Virus record (IMG/VR): IMGVR_UViG_3300037502_000798
Coordinates: 1 to 27,397 of that record
DNA length: 27,397 bases
Direction: 5' to 3' (one strand)
DNA from: a virus
The notes beneath the pieces were generated by a model. It saw only the letters and a list, made by a program, of their open reading frames with translations. It was not told the DNA's origin and ran no database searches. The position numbers and the translations under genes were made by a program. Of this stretch, positions 1,285-6,746 are shown piece after piece. The first letter of the stretch is position 1. Each line of letters begins with the position of its first letter.

Positions 1285-2009
1285 GAACGATTGCTTGGTT
1301 TTCTTGTGGAGCTGCATCTGCTGTGGCTACAAAACTAGCTTTGCAAGAAACGCCGCTAGAAATTGTGTATTGCCATGTCCAAGAAGAGCACCAAGATAAT
1401 CTTAGGTTCAAGAACGACTGCGAAAAATGGTTTGGTCAAGAAATTAAGGTTATTAAAAATGAAAAATACAACGGCAGCATTTACGAGGTTTTTGAAAAGA
1501 CTCGTTACATAGTGGGTGTAGCTGGTGCTCCATGCACACGGTTGCTCAAAAAAGAAATGCGTAAGGAGTTTGAGCGGCCTGGCGACAGGCAAGTGTTTGG
1601 ATACACCGTTGAAGAGCAAGACCGAGTTGATCGCTTTATAGACGCTAATAACGATGTAAACCTATGGTCTATTCTGATAGACAAAGGTCTTACAAAACAA
1701 GATTGTTTAGCTATTCTACAAAGGGCCGGAATTGAACTGCCTGTAATGTATAAACTTGGATACCAAAACAATAACTGTATCGGGTGCGTAAAAGGTGGCC
1801 TTGGTTACTGGAACAAGATCAGAGTTGACTTTCCAGACCAATTCAACCGAATGGCAGAGATGGAAAAAAAGATTAACGCCAAAATTTTAAAACACAATGG
1901 CGAACGAATCTGGCTCACAGACCTGCCGAAAGACGCTGGTGATTACCCGACAGAGCAAGCGATCGAGTGCGGTATTTTTTGCCAGATGGCAGAGGATGAC
2001 ATTAAGTGA
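1281..2009 (+). CDS. PP-loop ATPase, PAPS-reductase/DndC-like
   Basis: The 242-residue protein starts with the PP-loop of the adenine-nucleotide alpha-hydrolase fold (SCGAASA, residues 8-14, on a first strand TIAWF). Family members activate a substrate with ATP or reduce adenylyl sulphate. Cysteines at 85 (APCT), 166 and 169 (CIGC), and 230 and 234 (CGIFC) could bind a metal or Fe-S cluster. The same overall scheme occurs in DndC, the sulphur-inserting enzyme of phosphorothioate DNA modification, and in many phage proteins annotated as PAPS reductases. No other dnd gene is in the window, so the substrate is open: DNA, tRNA or sulphur metabolism. The gene overlaps its upstream neighbour by four bases and the GTG start of ninB at its 3' end. 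Confidence 0.7.
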   Translation: MRTIAWFSCGAASAVATKLALQETPLEIVYCHVQEEHQDNLRFKNDCEKWFGQEIKVIKNEKYNGSIYEVFEKTRYIVGVAGAPCTRLLKKEMRKEFERPGDRQVFGYTVEEQDRVDRFIDANNDVNLWSILIDKGLTKQDCLAILQRAGIELPVMYKLGYQNNNCIGCVKGGLGYWNKIRVDFPDQFNRMAEMEKKINAKILKHNGERIWLTDLPKDAGDYPTEQAIECGIFCQMAEDDIK

Positions 2010-2386
2010 TCCTTACATCCAACAACCGAGACATTGCCAAGCAGCTCGTGGAGACTGCTGATGACGGCATGGTTATGGAGATCAGAAAACCAAAAAGAAG
2101 CCTAGACTCCAATCGGTATCTTTGGGCCGTGTTGGGTGATATATCGGAACAGGTTGTAATCGGGAAACCTTACGAACCTAGCATCTGGCACGTTTACTTC
2201 AAGCAGTTATTTTTGCCTGACCTGGTGCAAGAACTCCCAGACGGAAGTTTGAACGTGGCTCCGCCAAGCTCTGCAAAACTAACGCAAAAAGAGTTTTCAG
2301 ATTATGTTGAGAAGGTTGTGCAATGGGCATTGGAACACGATGTAAAGTTCTCAGAAGATACCAGGAGGCTAGGTGACGAAAGATGA
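2006..2386 (+). CDS. ninB: NinB-family recombination mediator
   Basis: This 126-residue protein carries the NinB signature: a strand-rich start, KPKRSLDSNRYLWAVLGDI (about 28-46), then WHVYFKQLFLP, a segment of ELPDGS type, and KLTQKEFSDYVEKV near the C-terminus. Lambda NinB (Orf, about 146 residues) binds ssDNA and replaces RecFOR in phage recombination. The protein is a little shorter than lambda's at the C-terminus. The start is GTG at 2006, overlapping the previous stop. Its last codons overlap what looks like the original start and Shine-Dalgarno of the ref-like gene (2363-2375), which an HNH insertion has since separated. Together with the Ref-like and exonuclease genes it forms a recombination set. 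Confidence 0.85.
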   Translation: MILTSNNRDIAKQLVETADDGMVMEIRKPKRSLDSNRYLWAVLGDISEQVVIGKPYEPSIWHVYFKQLFLPDLVQELPDGSLNVAPPSSAKLTQKEFSDYVEKVVQWALEHDVKFSEDTRRLGDER

Positions 2387-2387
2387 G
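2379..2387 (+). repeat. left flank repeat of HNH insertion (AAAGATGAG)
   Basis: AAAGATGAG here and AAAAATGAG at 2976-2984 agree at eight of nine bases, with the last five (ATGAG) identical. They sit exactly at the edges of the segment holding the HNH gene and occupy the same codon positions (4-5) of the ref-like frame. Confidence 0.5.
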
Positions 2388-2393
2388 ATTTTA

Positions 2394-2422
2394 TTGACAG
2401 ATAACATAAAATCTTTTATGTT
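2394..2422 (+). promoter_or_regulatory. promoter of the HNH gene with overlapping palindrome
   Basis: A consensus TTGACA (2394-2399) is followed after 17 bases by TATGTT (2417-2422). A perfect 9-bp inverted repeat, 2403-2411 with 2414-2422 (2-base centre), covers the spacer and the -10 box, as an operator would. The predicted transcript start falls at about 2429, the A of the HNH start codon, and no Shine-Dalgarno precedes that ATG, so the mRNA may be leaderless. Confidence 0.55.
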
Positions 2423-2428
2423 GTAGAT

Positions 2429-2983
2429 ATGAAACCTTACAACTTATTAAATCAAAAATTTGGCCGTTTATTTGTTACAGAAAAAGTTGGTCTTGATAAA
2501 AGAAGCTATGTTCGTTGGAAATGTCAATGTGATTGCGGGAAAGTAATTGTTACAACATCTCCCTGTCTTGTTTCTGGAAAATCAAAATCGTGTGGATGTC
2601 TAGGTGCTGAAAATAGACTTAAGTCTGTAACTAAACACGGGGCCACAAAAAACAAACAACAAACAAATGAATATGTAATTTGGAACGGGATAAAAAATCG
2701 TTGTTACAACACAAAAAACATAAGTTATAAAAACTATGGTGGAAGAGGAATAAAACTTTGTGAAGAATGGCATGACTTTTCAAAATTCTTAAAAGATGTT
2801 GGATTTAGGCCAAGCAAAGATCATTCATTAGATCGAATTAATCCAAATGGAGATTACGAACCTGGGAATTGCAGGTGGGCAACAAAAAAAGAACAGGCTG
2901 CAAATAGAAGATTAAAAGTATTTGCAGGGCCGATATGCTGCCCAAATTGTAAAACTGTATTTAACCCGTATGAAAAAAAATGA
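2429..2983 (+). CDS. HNH-type homing endonuclease-like protein with zinc-finger N-terminus
   Basis: The 184-residue protein belongs to a common phage family of free-standing endonuclease-like proteins. Residues 1-60 form a treble-clef-like cysteine domain (CQCDCGK at 32-38, SCGC at 54-57). Then come YGGRGI (103-108), CEEW, SLDR (133-136) and EPGNCRWAT (144-152), the conserved nuclease/DNA-binding block. A short C-terminal extension carries CCPNC (170-174). Base composition is much more AT-rich than its neighbours, a sign of separate origin. The ATG at 2429 has no Shine-Dalgarno but lies at the predicted transcript start of its own promoter. The 3' end overlaps the ref-like gene by 14 bases and supplies its ATG. 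Cleavage specificity is unknown; the junction 2387/2985 is a natural guess for its target. Confidence 0.75.
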   Translation: MKPYNLLNQKFGRLFVTEKVGLDKRSYVRWKCQCDCGKVIVTTSPCLVSGKSKSCGCLGAENRLKSVTKHGATKNKQQTNEYVIWNGIKNRCYNTKNISYKNYGGRGIKLCEEWHDFSKFLKDVGFRPSKDHSLDRINPNGDYEPGNCRWATKKEQAANRRLKVFAGPICCPNCKTVFNPYEKK

Positions 2984-3248
2984 GCGAGATTGGCTTAACT
3001 CCGTCGCAGAACTCGGTTGTATTGTCTGCCGCAGATTGGGATACGATGGAACACCTGCTGAAATCCACCATATCAGAGCGGGGCAGGGATGGGGACGCAG
3101 TTCTCATTACGACACACTTCCACTCTGCCCAGAGCACCATAGAGGTAAAACTGGAGTTCATGGACTAGGAAGCAAGGGTTTCCCAAAACACTACGGATTT
3201 ACAGAACAAGAACTACTAGAGGAAGTGCGTTGTTTACTATCTCGCTGA
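2970..3248 (+). CDS. Ref-like HNH recombination nuclease
   Basis: The 92-residue protein contains CIVC (17-20), EIHHIRAG (31-38), RSSHYDTLPLCPEHH (43-57), then GVHG and a basic C-terminus. This CxxC...HH...CxxHH pattern is that of the phage P1 Ref / DUF968-type HNH nucleases. P1 Ref cuts DNA in a RecA-dependent way; the present protein matches only the catalytic half in length. ATG 2970 is chosen because upstream residues in the frame (from 2922) are merely the HNH gene read in another frame. There is no good Shine-Dalgarno at 2970, consistent with a start provided by the inserted HNH gene. Translation may depend on coupling to that gene. Confidence 0.65.
   Translation: MKKNERDWLNSVAELGCIVCRRLGYDGTPAEIHHIRAGQGWGRSSHYDTLPLCPEHHRGKTGVHGLGSKGFPKHYGFTEQELLEEVRCLLSR
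2976..2984 (+). repeat. right flank repeat of HNH insertion (AAAAATGAG)
   Basis: Partner of the repeat at 2379-2387 (eight of nine bases equal). It encodes codons 3-5 of the present ref-like gene. Confidence 0.5.
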
Positions 3249-3835
3249 CTTTTTATAACGACCACGAGCACTTAGGCAGGCATATAGATGCGTGGCGTAC
3301 ATACCCAGAAATCTATAAGCAGATCATTGATGACGGCTCTGAAGTCCCTCCAAAAGCAGATGTTCCGATCTACCGGATAGAAAAAGACATTCCGTGGAAC
3401 ATTCCCGGGGCAAGAAACCTTGGAGCTGCGGTCTGCCCGACAGAATGGATACTGTTCTGCGACACGGATCAGACGTTCTCCAAAGAGTCGATTGATGCCA
3501 TTATTGACACCAAACTAGAGCGCGGGAAATTCTACTCGTTCATGCGGCACAATCGCCCTAGAACTGCCGGAACCATGCTGGTCAACCGACAGGACTATTG
3601 GAGTGTCGGCGGGTACGACGAGGACTTTGCCGGACACTACGGTTATAACGATCCATTCCTGAGAGCATTGTTTTACTCCGCTGGGATTCAAGAGATTACA
3701 CTTCCGATACTCTGCACCCAGCATAGTGCCGACTGCCAGCTCATCAGGACTCCGAATAACGAAGGTCTCTACCAGAAGAAGCTGAGATCAGAGCGCAGCA
3801 AGACTTACCTTAGATTTCCGTGGAAAAGAATATGA
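3230..3835 (+). CDS. family-2-like (GT-A) glycosyltransferase
   Basis: The 201-residue protein has a GT-A glycosyltransferase layout: first strand TISLTFYND, IDDGS (33-37), PGARNLGAA (59-67), and a metal-binding DTD at 78-80 within ILFCDTDQ. A later block, GGYDEDFAGHYGYND, is like the acceptor/ED region of GT2 enzymes. The enzyme should transfer a sugar from a nucleotide-sugar donor; the acceptor (phage DNA, virion protein or host surface glycan) is not shown. The start is TTG at 3230 with AGAGGA 6-7 bases upstream, inside the end of the ref-like gene (19-base overlap). It begins a run of three glycosyltransferase genes. Confidence 0.75.
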   Translation: MFTISLTFYNDHEHLGRHIDAWRTYPEIYKQIIDDGSEVPPKADVPIYRIEKDIPWNIPGARNLGAAVCPTEWILFCDTDQTFSKESIDAIIDTKLERGKFYSFMRHNRPRTAGTMLVNRQDYWSVGGYDEDFAGHYGYNDPFLRALFYSAGIQEITLPILCTQHSADCQLIRTPNNEGLYQKKLRSERSKTYLRFPWKRI

Positions 3836-4482: not shown

Positions 4483-5150
4483 CCATTGCAACCGTTAAGG
4501 GAGACTGCCTTGTAACCTTGGCGGCTTCCGTTACTTCTTACGTCCCGCAGGATGTTGTCGTGTTCCTGTCTGGGTCTAGCATGATCTTTCCCAGACACCG
4601 GACGGTAACCCTTACAAACGAGGCCACGAACTTTGGGGATGCCTACAACTTTGTAATGAAACGGGCTTTTCAGGAGTTTGATGAGGTCGTGTGTTGCAAC
4701 GACGATATTGTGTTCACCCCTACGACTTGGCAGACGCTAAGTGAGAATGTTTCTCAGTTAAAAGGTAAAAGCATCCCCCTCGGCTGGGTCGCCTGCCGTA
4801 GCGATTACGCGAGAGGATACCAAAATATCCGGCTCGGGCAAGGCAGGATGGATTTCTTTAAGTTCGAGACCGAAAAGGCGATGATTGAGACCGACATCAT
4901 TGCCCCCATCTGTGCGTACATTCACAAGGACGCCTGGATAGACTTTCCGCCGATCAACTGGTATTCGGATGACATCCAATGCCTTGACATGAACGCAAAA
5001 GGTTTGCGACACTTTATAAGTACCGCCTACGTTCACCACGTTGGGAGTGCTACGGTTGGTAGAGATGGAAAGAAATGTATCGAGGATGCAAAACCTTGGA
5101 TCGTAGAAAATAGGCCAGAACTCGCAGAGCAATGGTTTCCGAAGAACTAA
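4470..5150 (+). CDS. glycosyltransferase-like protein with probable ATT start
   Basis: About 226 residues. An N-terminal strand AIAIATVKGD, then FGDAYNFVMKRAF, and EVVCCNDDIVF (the NDD metal-site equivalent of a GT-A fold) identify a family-2-like glycosyltransferase. A C-terminal block with WYSDDIQCLDMNAKG and YVHHVGSAT matches the second half of such enzymes. The reading frame is open back to 4398, but residues before AIAIA look like shadow sequence of the upstream gene. AGAGGAG at 4455-4461 points to the ATT at 4470 (8-base spacing); no ATG, GTG or TTG is suitably placed. The gene overlaps its upstream neighbour by 13 bases and the HNH gene downstream by 19. Confidence 0.65.
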   Translation: MKAIAIATVKGDCLVTLAASVTSYVPQDVVVFLSGSSMIFPRHRTVTLTNEATNFGDAYNFVMKRAFQEFDEVVCCNDDIVFTPTTWQTLSENVSQLKGKSIPLGWVACRSDYARGYQNIRLGQGRMDFFKFETEKAMIETDIIAPICAYIHKDAWIDFPPINWYSDDIQCLDMNAKGLRHFISTAYVHHVGSATVGRDGKKCIEDAKPWIVENRPELAEQWFPKN

Positions 5151-5602
5151 CACAAGAACGGCTCAAACAGGTTTTGGACTACGATCCAGAAACAGGTATT
5201 TTTTGCCGCAAAAGCCGTAACGGCCTGAAAAAGCCGAGAGTTATTTCTGGCTCAAACATAAATGGTTATAAAGTTACAAAAATAGACAATAAGCCGTATT
5301 ACCTACATCGTTTGGCGTGGCTATATGTTTATGGGAAATTTCCAGAAAAAGAGATAGACCATAAAAACAAAATTAAGTCCGACAACAGAATCTGCAATTT
5401 AAGGGACATTTCTAGGCAACAAAACATCCAAAACAGAGGCAACCCGCTAGGTGTTTTCCCTACATCAAACAATAGGCGTTGGCGGGCAAGAATAGTGTTT
5501 TCTGGGAATCACATAAACCTAGGAACATTTGCAACAAAAGAAGAAGCAATACAAAAATACAAAGAAGCAAAAAAGATTTATCACCCATATTTTTATGAGT
5601 GA
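5132..5602 (+). CDS. HNH homing endonuclease with AP2-like domain
   Basis: The 156-residue protein starts with the family's usual ELTQERLKQVLDYDPETGIF (residues 5-24). It continues with HRLAWLYVYG (59-68), EIDHKNKIKSDNR (74-86) of the HNH_3 nuclease, and CNLRDISRQQN. Residues 107-150 form an AP2-like DNA-binding region (GVF, WRARI, LGTFATKEEA). Such genes are free-standing homing endonucleases in phages. The start codon ATG 5132 lies inside the preceding glycosyltransferase gene; four or five residues (MVSEE) precede the usual family start and may derive from the gene it displaced. It is AT-richer than its neighbours. The 3' end overlaps the Q-like gene by eight bases. Confidence 0.85.
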   Translation: MVSEELTQERLKQVLDYDPETGIFCRKSRNGLKKPRVISGSNINGYKVTKIDNKPYYLHRLAWLYVYGKFPEKEIDHKNKIKSDNRICNLRDISRQQNIQNRGNPLGVFPTSNNRRWRARIVFSGNHINLGTFATKEEAIQKYKEAKKIYHPYFYE

Positions 5603-6008
5603 AATGGAAGATAGGCTAATTAACTGGTCGTGGTATGTGAACTATGGACTGATTGGCCCAGAGGTTCGCACCCAAGCTGCTTCTGCCGAGGGTAACTACG
5701 AATCTGACGACGTTTGGGAAGGCCAAGAACCAAAATACACCCCCGATTTGCTAGACGGAGAGCTAGTGGAAAACGCCATCCGCAGATTACCTGAGTTAAG
5801 TCGTCGGGTATTAAAAGCAAAGTATGTAAGTTTCCCGTATCATCGTTTACACACCGTGGCTCAGAGGCTGAGAATATCGGTGGACAGGCTTGAATCAGAG
5901 TTACAAATGGCAAAGAGGAGATTATCAAGTGAACTCGAAAGAGATCGAACAAGGCACGCCGGAGTGGCTACAGGCCAGGCTCGGATGTGCGACAGCATCC
6001 AAAGCTAA
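5595..6008 (+). CDS. Q-like antiterminator / sigma-region-4-like protein
   Basis: About 137 residues. It opens with a NWSWYV motif as in small phage antiterminator Q proteins, has a variable middle with TPDLLDGELVENAI, and continues with RRLPELSRRVLKAKYV plus a helix-turn-helix-like segment (VAQRLRISVDRLESEL). This LP..R..L...Y plus HTH block is shared by Q antiterminators and sigma-70 region 4. The likely role is switching on late transcription, here presumably the leftward virion operon. ATG 5595 (or 5604) is chosen because earlier residues in the frame are HNH shadow. The tail (last about 27 residues) overlaps the exonuclease gene by 80 bases, unusually long for this genome. Confidence 0.6.
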   Translation: MSEMEDRLINWSWYVNYGLIGPEVRTQAASAEGNYESDDVWEGQEPKYTPDLLDGELVENAIRRLPELSRRVLKAKYVSFPYHRLHTVAQRLRISVDRLESELQMAKRRLSSELERDRTRHAGVATGQARMCDSIQS

Positions 6009-6525
6009 CGACTTCTGCGCTGCTGAAACCACGGCGGCTTACCAGAACTATCTGTGGCAGCTCGTAGCTGAACGGGAAACCGGCCAGCGCGAGGACGGAT
6101 ACACAAACGCAGATATGCAACGAGGAACCGAAATGGAACCCGTTGCCAGAGCTGCTTATGAAGCCCACACAGGGACTTTCGTCACCCAAACAGGCTTCTG
6201 GCTACACCCGACGATTCCGTACTTCGGAGCATCCCCAGACGGATTGGTTGGGGAAGATGGTCTTATAGAGATCAAGTGTCCTAGAACCTCAACTCACCTC
6301 CGCTACAGAAGTGATAACAAAGTTCCAACAACCTACAAAAAGCAGATGATTTGCCAGCTACTTTGCACCGGCAGGAAGTGGGTGGACTTTATCAGTTTTG
6401 ATAATAGAGTCAGGGATTCCAAGCAGCTCTTTATCGTGCGGTTTGAGCCAACCCAAAAAGAACTAGACGATATGCTGAAAAGCGTCCAGAGTTTCTTGGC
6501 CGCAGTAGCGAAGGAGTGCGAATGA
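5929..6525 (+). CDS. lambda exonuclease / YqaJ-type recombinase nuclease
   Basis: The 198-residue protein has the YqaJ/lambda-Exo arrangement: QGTPEWLQARLG near the N-terminus, RGTEMEP (65-71), and the catalytic core FGASPDGLVGEDGLIEIKC with Asp104, Glu114 and Lys116. It should resect dsDNA ends 5'-3' for single-strand annealing or RecA-type recombination, working with NinB and the Ref-like protein. No Bet/RecT annealing protein is visible in the window. The start is GTG 5929, supported by AAGAGGAG at 5913-5920; the frame is open to 5890 but those residues lie in the Q-like gene. It overlaps the next gene as ATGA. Confidence 0.9.
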   Translation: MNSKEIEQGTPEWLQARLGCATASKANDFCAAETTAAYQNYLWQLVAERETGQREDGYTNADMQRGTEMEPVARAAYEAHTGTFVTQTGFWLHPTIPYFGASPDGLVGEDGLIEIKCPRTSTHLRYRSDNKVPTTYKKQMICQLLCTGRKWVDFISFDNRVRDSKQLFIVRFEPTQKELDDMLKSVQSFLAAVAKECE

Positions 6526-6746
6526 AAAATATGCCTGCGTTCCCAACAGAAAACAAAACCATGTTTTTTCATGGTATGACCCTGCGAGATTACTTCGCGG
6601 CAAAGGCGATGCAGGCCATGCTTGCCAGCCCAGAGCTTATGGTTGTTGTCACGGCTGATCAGGCTCTTGGTGAAAATGCCCGTGAGAGGATCGCTACGCT
6701 TTCCTATCGTTATGCAGACGCTATGCTAAAAGCGAGGGAAGATTGA
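6522..6746 (+). CDS. small phage protein of the GMTLRDYFAAKAM type
   Basis: This 74-residue protein has a pattern seen in many phages: a short polar start with PAFP, then GMTLRDYFAAKAMQA, and a C-terminal helix ending YADAMLKARE. Its function is unknown. ATG 6522 is chosen because AAGGAG (6511-6516) lies five bases upstream and the ATG overlaps the exonuclease stop as ATGA; an in-frame GTG at 6516 lies within that Shine-Dalgarno. The next small gene starts at its stop codon. Confidence 0.75.
   Translation: MKNMPAFPTENKTMFFHGMTLRDYFAAKAMQAMLASPELMVVVTADQALGENARERIATLSYRYADAMLKARED

Follow-up and report, generated by a model that had tools for sequence, protein, structure and literature searches.

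Architecture of the ninB-HNH-ref locus

The window, that is the whole stretch of DNA analysed, is a 27.4-kb virus record in which a ninB-HNH-ref segment lies near the left end, with all its features on the + strand. The first gene, ninB (2006..2386), encodes an Orf-type recombination mediator (Pfam NinB, E 7.7e-16; PHROG 72), and its TGA stop falls within the native translation start of ref (2363..2387), which is stranded there as an orphan composed of AGGAGG at 2363-2368, GTG at 2373-2375 and the codons MTKDE. The fifth codon ends at 2387 and foreign sequence follows; the frame opened by the GTG runs on as a mini-ORF of 17 codons (2373..2426; MTKDEILLTDNIKSFML) to a TAG stop at 2424-2426, a leftover of the insertion whose left junction is the same in a second carrier, L080. 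The incoming tract (2388..3002) comprises a promoter-like region, an HNH gene and, in recoded form, ref codons 1-11. Its left edge, resolvable only to about 1 base around codon 5, is common to L080 and was set by the empty relatives of that locus, L123-L125; its right edge was set by L001, an uninterrupted relative of the window. The HNH-type endonuclease gene (2429..2983) encodes 184 aa with a Cys-rich C-terminal tail, and the present ref ORF, whose first 14 nt lie within it, starts with the ATG at 2970, reads MKKNE and then RDWLN, and ends at 3248. The AGGAGG and GTG, the MTKDE frame broken after 2387 and the MKKNE at 2970 had been pointed out in a sequence-only reading and were all verified, as was the AT-richness of the segment between the two ref start copies (GC of 0.33 in the insert versus 0.47 for ninB and 0.49 for the body of ref). 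The boundary copies, GTGACGAAAGATGAG and ATGAAAAAAAATGAG, have 11 of 15 bases in common, and agreement of at least 11/15 is reached by about 0.1% of random 15-mer pairs drawn from 2000-3300. The native starts of relatives are on average 2.2 bases from the 5' copy and 4.1 from the 3' copy, indicating that the 5' copy is the native one.

The rebuilt ref gene (2970..3248; 92 aa) belongs to the Ref-like RecA-dependent nuclease family (PHROG 1588), with a RecA_dep_nuc domain (PF16786) at E 1.2e-11 and 45.1 bits against a cut-off of 26.9. Its 5' end (2970..3002), supplied by the insert, reads MKKNERDWLNS in place of VTKDEKQHLSR, so that the gene is rebuilt as an open frame rather than destroyed. P1 Ref cuts RecA-bound DNA only and has a separate N-terminal DNA-binding domain (PMC4713147); the 92-aa product is shorter than P1 Ref and corresponds approximately to its nuclease part, with a predicted activity. 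We see no Shine-Dalgarno sequence ahead of the ATG at 2970, which makes translational coupling of ref to the HNH gene probable, and the rebuilt gene would presumably be translated and active.

The HNH protein matches PHROG 374 ('HNH endonuclease', E 5.6e-61) and other HNH PHROGs, and a Pfam search with its 184 residues gave no match. It is 78% identical to the HNH protein of L080; relatives below 60% identity occur in 1091 phage records, and bacterial genomes hold distant relatives only. Among the motif residues Asp135 and Asn147 are kept, and the position of the first His is taken by Arg136, which is invariant across an 11-sequence alignment of relatives. No relative of solved structure was found by sequence or by fold, the latter with a predicted model of pTM only 0.47. 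Because Arg replaces the first His and no solved relative was found, the endonuclease activity of this protein is taken from the naming of its family. The distant relatives align across residues 1 to about 165, without the Cys-rich tail GPICCPNCKTVFNPYEKK (window 2930-2983), which is kept in L080 and in place of which the distant relatives have other tails; possibly this tail is part of target recognition. A related PHROG 374-type HNH gene with a different tail lies at 2285-2929 of L092, where it shares an ATGA overlap with the start of the next gene.

At the left edge of the insert there is a promoter-like sequence, TTGACA-N17-TATGTT (2394..2422), with 10/12 consensus matches and kept in L080; the number of promoter-like sites in the region is not above that in shuffled sequence. 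Its spacer and -10 are covered by a palindrome, AACATAAAATCTTTTATGTT (2403..2422), the L080 counterpart of which, AACATACAATCTTGTATGTT, is changed on both sides: the 9-bp arms have changed in step (AACATAaAATCTTtTATGTT versus AACATAcAATCTTgTATGTT), one paired change in two sequences only. The corresponding RNA hairpin stands 6 nt ahead of the HNH start and is found in the minimum-energy fold of both carriers (shuffle z -1.9 to -2.8), and a transcription start 7 nt past the -10 would coincide with the HNH ATG. A promoter belonging to the insert itself and overlapping the palindrome is probable, and in read-through mRNA the palindrome would fold into a hairpin ahead of the HNH start, an arrangement that recalls the hairpin/late-promoter control of T4-type homing endonucleases (PMC2988022). 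The L080 contig was the only further carrier of the promoter and palindrome found; the NPYEKK-stop pattern occurs in ten stretches, that contig among them.

Uninterrupted sites and the extent of the replaced tract

Scanning IMG/VR with the ref protein yielded 80 loci, to which later scans added others; start types were counted where sufficient sequence upstream of ref was present, which was the case at 77 distinct loci, 75 of them without the window-type HNH gene. The predicted native start, [A/G]TGA-N5-[G/A]ATGA[A/G], is present at 61 of these 75 loci, coding mostly for M/V-T-K-[D/N]-E, and uninterrupted relatives continue after MTKDE with K-x-[H/Y]-[L/M]-[N/S/R]. At 14 distinct HNH-less loci the gene immediately upstream is ninB and its end overlaps the start of ref, which is the joined arrangement with the GTG start that the sequence-only reading had foreseen; an uninterrupted ref that starts elsewhere or with an unrelated N-terminus was not found among the examined ref loci. 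The 14 empty loci, together with the filled and empty pair of L080 described below, support the insertion of an HNH gene into a ref gene that regained its start from the insert.

A self-splicing intron or an intein encoding the HNH protein, through which MTKDE would be joined to the rest of ref in RNA or protein, would account for a frame-compatible gene interruption carrying an endonuclease, as in phage introns. But ref possesses its own start, and a spliced MTKDE-RDWLN would be unlike any relative, since relatives have K-x-H-L after MTKDE. An Rfam search of window 2000-3300 with E up to 1 gave no match and no conserved catalytic RNA core, which speaks against an intron and agrees with the earlier claim that none is needed, and in-frame stops after MTKDE speak against an intein or read-through; we give almost no credence to a spliced arrangement.

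The extent of the replaced tract was determined by two comparisons of filled with empty alleles, both of them at one site in close relatives. The window and the uninterrupted L001 are 94% identical overall (across 2143 bp) and agree at 242 of 246 bases over the rest of ref, starting at base 3003, compared with only 15 of 33 in the first 11 ref codons (Fisher p 6e-16). The incoming piece ends at about 3002 and not at 2984, because identity to L001 starts at 3003. In L080, the second carrier (on the contig of L082 and L179), the HNH gene has entered ref at the same codon as in the window, with another gene upstream, and L122-L125, which lack it, are its empty relatives. The left 176 bp of L080 are 98-99% identical in L123-L125 up to ATGACCAAAGATGAA; past ref codon 13 it agrees with L122-L125 at 238-239 of 240 bases (239 for L122, L123 and L125), and over the first 39 ref bases at 25 of 39, with MKKNEKAWLNKVS in place of MTKDEKKHLNRVA. 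In the pair formed by L080 and L123/L125 the junction likewise falls after codon 5. These two comparisons correct one element of the earlier proposal, in which the rebuilt part was five codons: the insert carries 11 recoded ref codons in the window (L001 comparison) and 13 in L080 (L122-L125 comparison), so that 33-39 bp of ref were replaced by flanking conversion together with the HNH gene. Joining 2387 to 2985, as that proposal had done, does restore one frame but does not recreate the natural sequence, since 2985-3002 (RDWLNS) belongs to the incoming tract.

Only two carriers of the window-type HNH gene were found, and none among the other ref loci examined. Their HNH genes agree at 411 of 541 bases, whereas each ref is near-identical to that of its own empty relative, a pattern expected if both HNH genes arrived recently and separately, from donors that had diverged. 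If the HNH arrangement were instead ancestral and the uninterrupted relatives the products of precise deletion, two diverged copies at the same codon would be compatible with its age. Such a history is very improbable: all other examined ref loci are without the window-type HNH gene, every loss would have to restore a native start matching the local lineage, and for either carrier there is an empty relative that hardly differs from it outside the tract. As to the source of the recoded codons under separate arrivals, the WLN stretch is confined to the two HNH carriers among the ref loci examined, and IMG/VR yielded no HNH-less ref with WLN as a possible donor. The recoded tract would fit selection that prevents re-cutting as well as co-conversion from a ref lineage outside those sampled.

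The conserved ref start ATGACCAAAGATGA (window 2373-2386; about 60 relatives) contains TGA stops in both other frames, and an upstream gene in either frame therefore ends within 14 nt. This may explain why so many different genes are joined there, because arriving genes terminate. The genes joined to the ref start in relatives are many and different, and several of them are methylase-like.

That the ref start is kept while many different genes join there would make it a general exchange point, and this bears on a passive origin of the locus, by which the HNH gene and a diverged ref 5' end arrived through ordinary phage recombination not driven by the enzyme. The ATGA-rich ref start would then have served as micro-homology, a role that the boundary repeat with its 11 shared bases of 15 could also play. 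Against such passive mosaicism stand the shortness of the replaced tract, the near-identical local sequence on either side of it and the two separate carriers, as well as the further HNH alleles at the same gene end to which we now turn.

Other HNH genes at the ref start and elsewhere in the window

Three further HNH alleles, all with NUMOD4 and HNH_3, are present at the ref 5' end, and the 3' end of each overlaps a ref start that has been rebuilt. In the L031/L219/L220 group (L031 and L219 being one contig) ref starts as MAKRKSKTLDE with an overlap of 28 nt, and the HNH gene lies at 3459-4282 of L031; in the L164/L222/L223 group the start is MVKRKSKT[A/S]DE with an overlap of 46 nt, and the gene occupies 1579-2405 of L164. 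In the L067/L240/L249/L251 group (HNH at 931-1864 of L067) ref starts as MAKRGSTYKTSDE, overlapping by 35 nt. Loci of the L067 type have a native ref interrupted about 33 codons in, and its displaced first third persists as an orphan upstream of the HNH gene, preceded by one of several different genes; the ref downstream is complete and mostly of another lineage (L190-like), and its 3' end is also close to the local lineage. At L279 and L280 another HNH gene, with a 4-nt overlap, precedes a ref from another clade.

By their sequences, at least three other HNH genes in related phages appear to have done to ref what the HNH gene of the window did. Four distinct HNH alleles at one gene end, all with a rebuilt start, exceed what random neighbours would be expected to give, and taken with the tract and carrier evidence this leaves passive mosaicism unlikely. 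Insertion with a rebuilt ref is a recurrent pattern, and the interpretation of the window holds once the tract is lengthened to codon 11.

A second HNH gene of the window (5132..5602, +) matches Pfam HNH_3 (E 8.5e-16) with a weak AP2 match, and its frame opens with MVSEE, the native start codons of the gene that follows. In relatives without it that gene reads MVSEERLKNW; in the window it (5595..6008, +) restarts as MSEMEDRLINW within the HNH 3' end. L001 is also without the second HNH gene, and diverged HNH genes are placed and arranged in the same way in five relatives (L002, L020, L028, L055, L073). Identity between the window and L001 is 94% to the left of the second HNH gene and 75% over about 0.9 kb to its right (5607-6526), which suggests a long co-converted or exchanged tract on that side.

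We lean, on balance, towards the view that at least four separate HNH alleles (one of PHROG 374, three of NUMOD4/HNH_3) land at the ref 5' end in this group of phages, each bringing its own recoded start, and that these would form a natural home-and-rescue class with a cut-resistant repaired start, to which the second HNH gene of the window offers much the same elsewhere.

A proposed homing route and its parallels

We consider it quite likely that the insert is a free-standing, intronless homing element consisting of an HNH-type endonuclease gene and the recoded first 11-13 codons of its target, ref. The HNH enzyme would most likely cut or nick uninterrupted ref just past codon 5 (codons 5-13), and the break would be repaired from an HNH-bearing phage genome during mixed infection, so that the recipient would acquire the HNH gene and the donor ref 5' end, as far as codon 11 in the window and codon 13 in L080. 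The former start, with MTKDE, would be left stranded upstream, ref would restart inside the HNH 3' end through the 14-nt overlap, and with the left half of the target split and its right half changed the occupied allele would be shielded from re-cutting. Cutting may also take place away from the junction, because the free-standing phage homing enzymes reviewed for T4 act at a distance of hundreds of bases or more from the gene that encodes them (PMC2988022).

A close parallel is in fungal mitochondria, where mORFs with duplicated gene ends are described for Allomyces atp6 and for Glomus atp6, atp9, cox2 and nad3 (PMC3630166). As in the window, an intronless endonuclease gene enters a gene whose full frame is restored by a foreign, diverged gene end, and the displaced native end may persist as an orphan (PMC3630166), for which the L067-type loci may be compared. 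The mORFs differ in replacing the C-terminal 3' end, in encoding LAGLIDADG or GIY-YIG enzymes and in being mitochondrial (PMC3630166), whereas in the window the exchange affects the 5' end with its start codon, the enzyme is of the HNH type and encoded upstream of the carried end, and the setting is a phage operon. In its working the window element resembles an mORF hybrid, yet we do not class it as one, because the 5' and not the 3' end is carried; by analogy it is best read as the 5' counterpart, or mirror image, of the fungal mORF gene hybrids, in phages.

Among phages, mobA in gene 60 and mobE in nrdA of phage Aeh1 are T4-type free-standing HNH homing endonucleases (PMC2988022). They too are intronless HNH genes within phage genes, with hairpin or promoter control upstream and an overlap with the neighbouring gene that suggests translational coupling, but they split the host gene into two polypeptides (PMC2988022), whereas ref is rebuilt in one piece. 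The out-of-frame HNH of the ShiLan type, inserted in a phage methylase (PMC11855218), is likewise intronless and leaves its host coding gene open; there the HNH lies open in frame with the methylase as a protein insert (PMC11855218), unlike ref, which restarts with a new 5' end. Tremella mitochondrial introns with duplicated host-gene fragments are also mobile and swap part of the host gene for a foreign copy, but they are spliced introns of fungal mitochondria (PMC7315562). In Skunavirus, distinct HNH genes occur at one insertion place (PMC12724721). The HomeR home-and-rescue drives (PMC7968924) similarly combine a nuclease gene placed in its target with a re-coded piece restoring that target, in a synthetic CRISPR construct for insects that has no common parts or ancestry with the window element, so that the likeness is one of analogy only. 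In the open-licence literature we found no phage case of an HNH gene rebuilding the 5' end of its target, which is weak evidence of absence.

The arrangement proposed here offers a route by which a homing endonuclease may enter a coding gene without an intron, an intein or splitting of the gene, namely by carrying a replacement gene start, and would be a natural parallel of the engineered home-and-rescue drives. It also explains odd ref N-termini such as MKKNE, MAKRKSKT, MVKRKSKT and MAKRGSTYKT, which gene callers would call ordinary starts. The natural filled and empty pairs point to an exact candidate target, ref codons 5-13, and the several HNH genes at one small recombination gene constitute a natural series for target recoding, immunity to re-cutting and the exchange of markers between phages.
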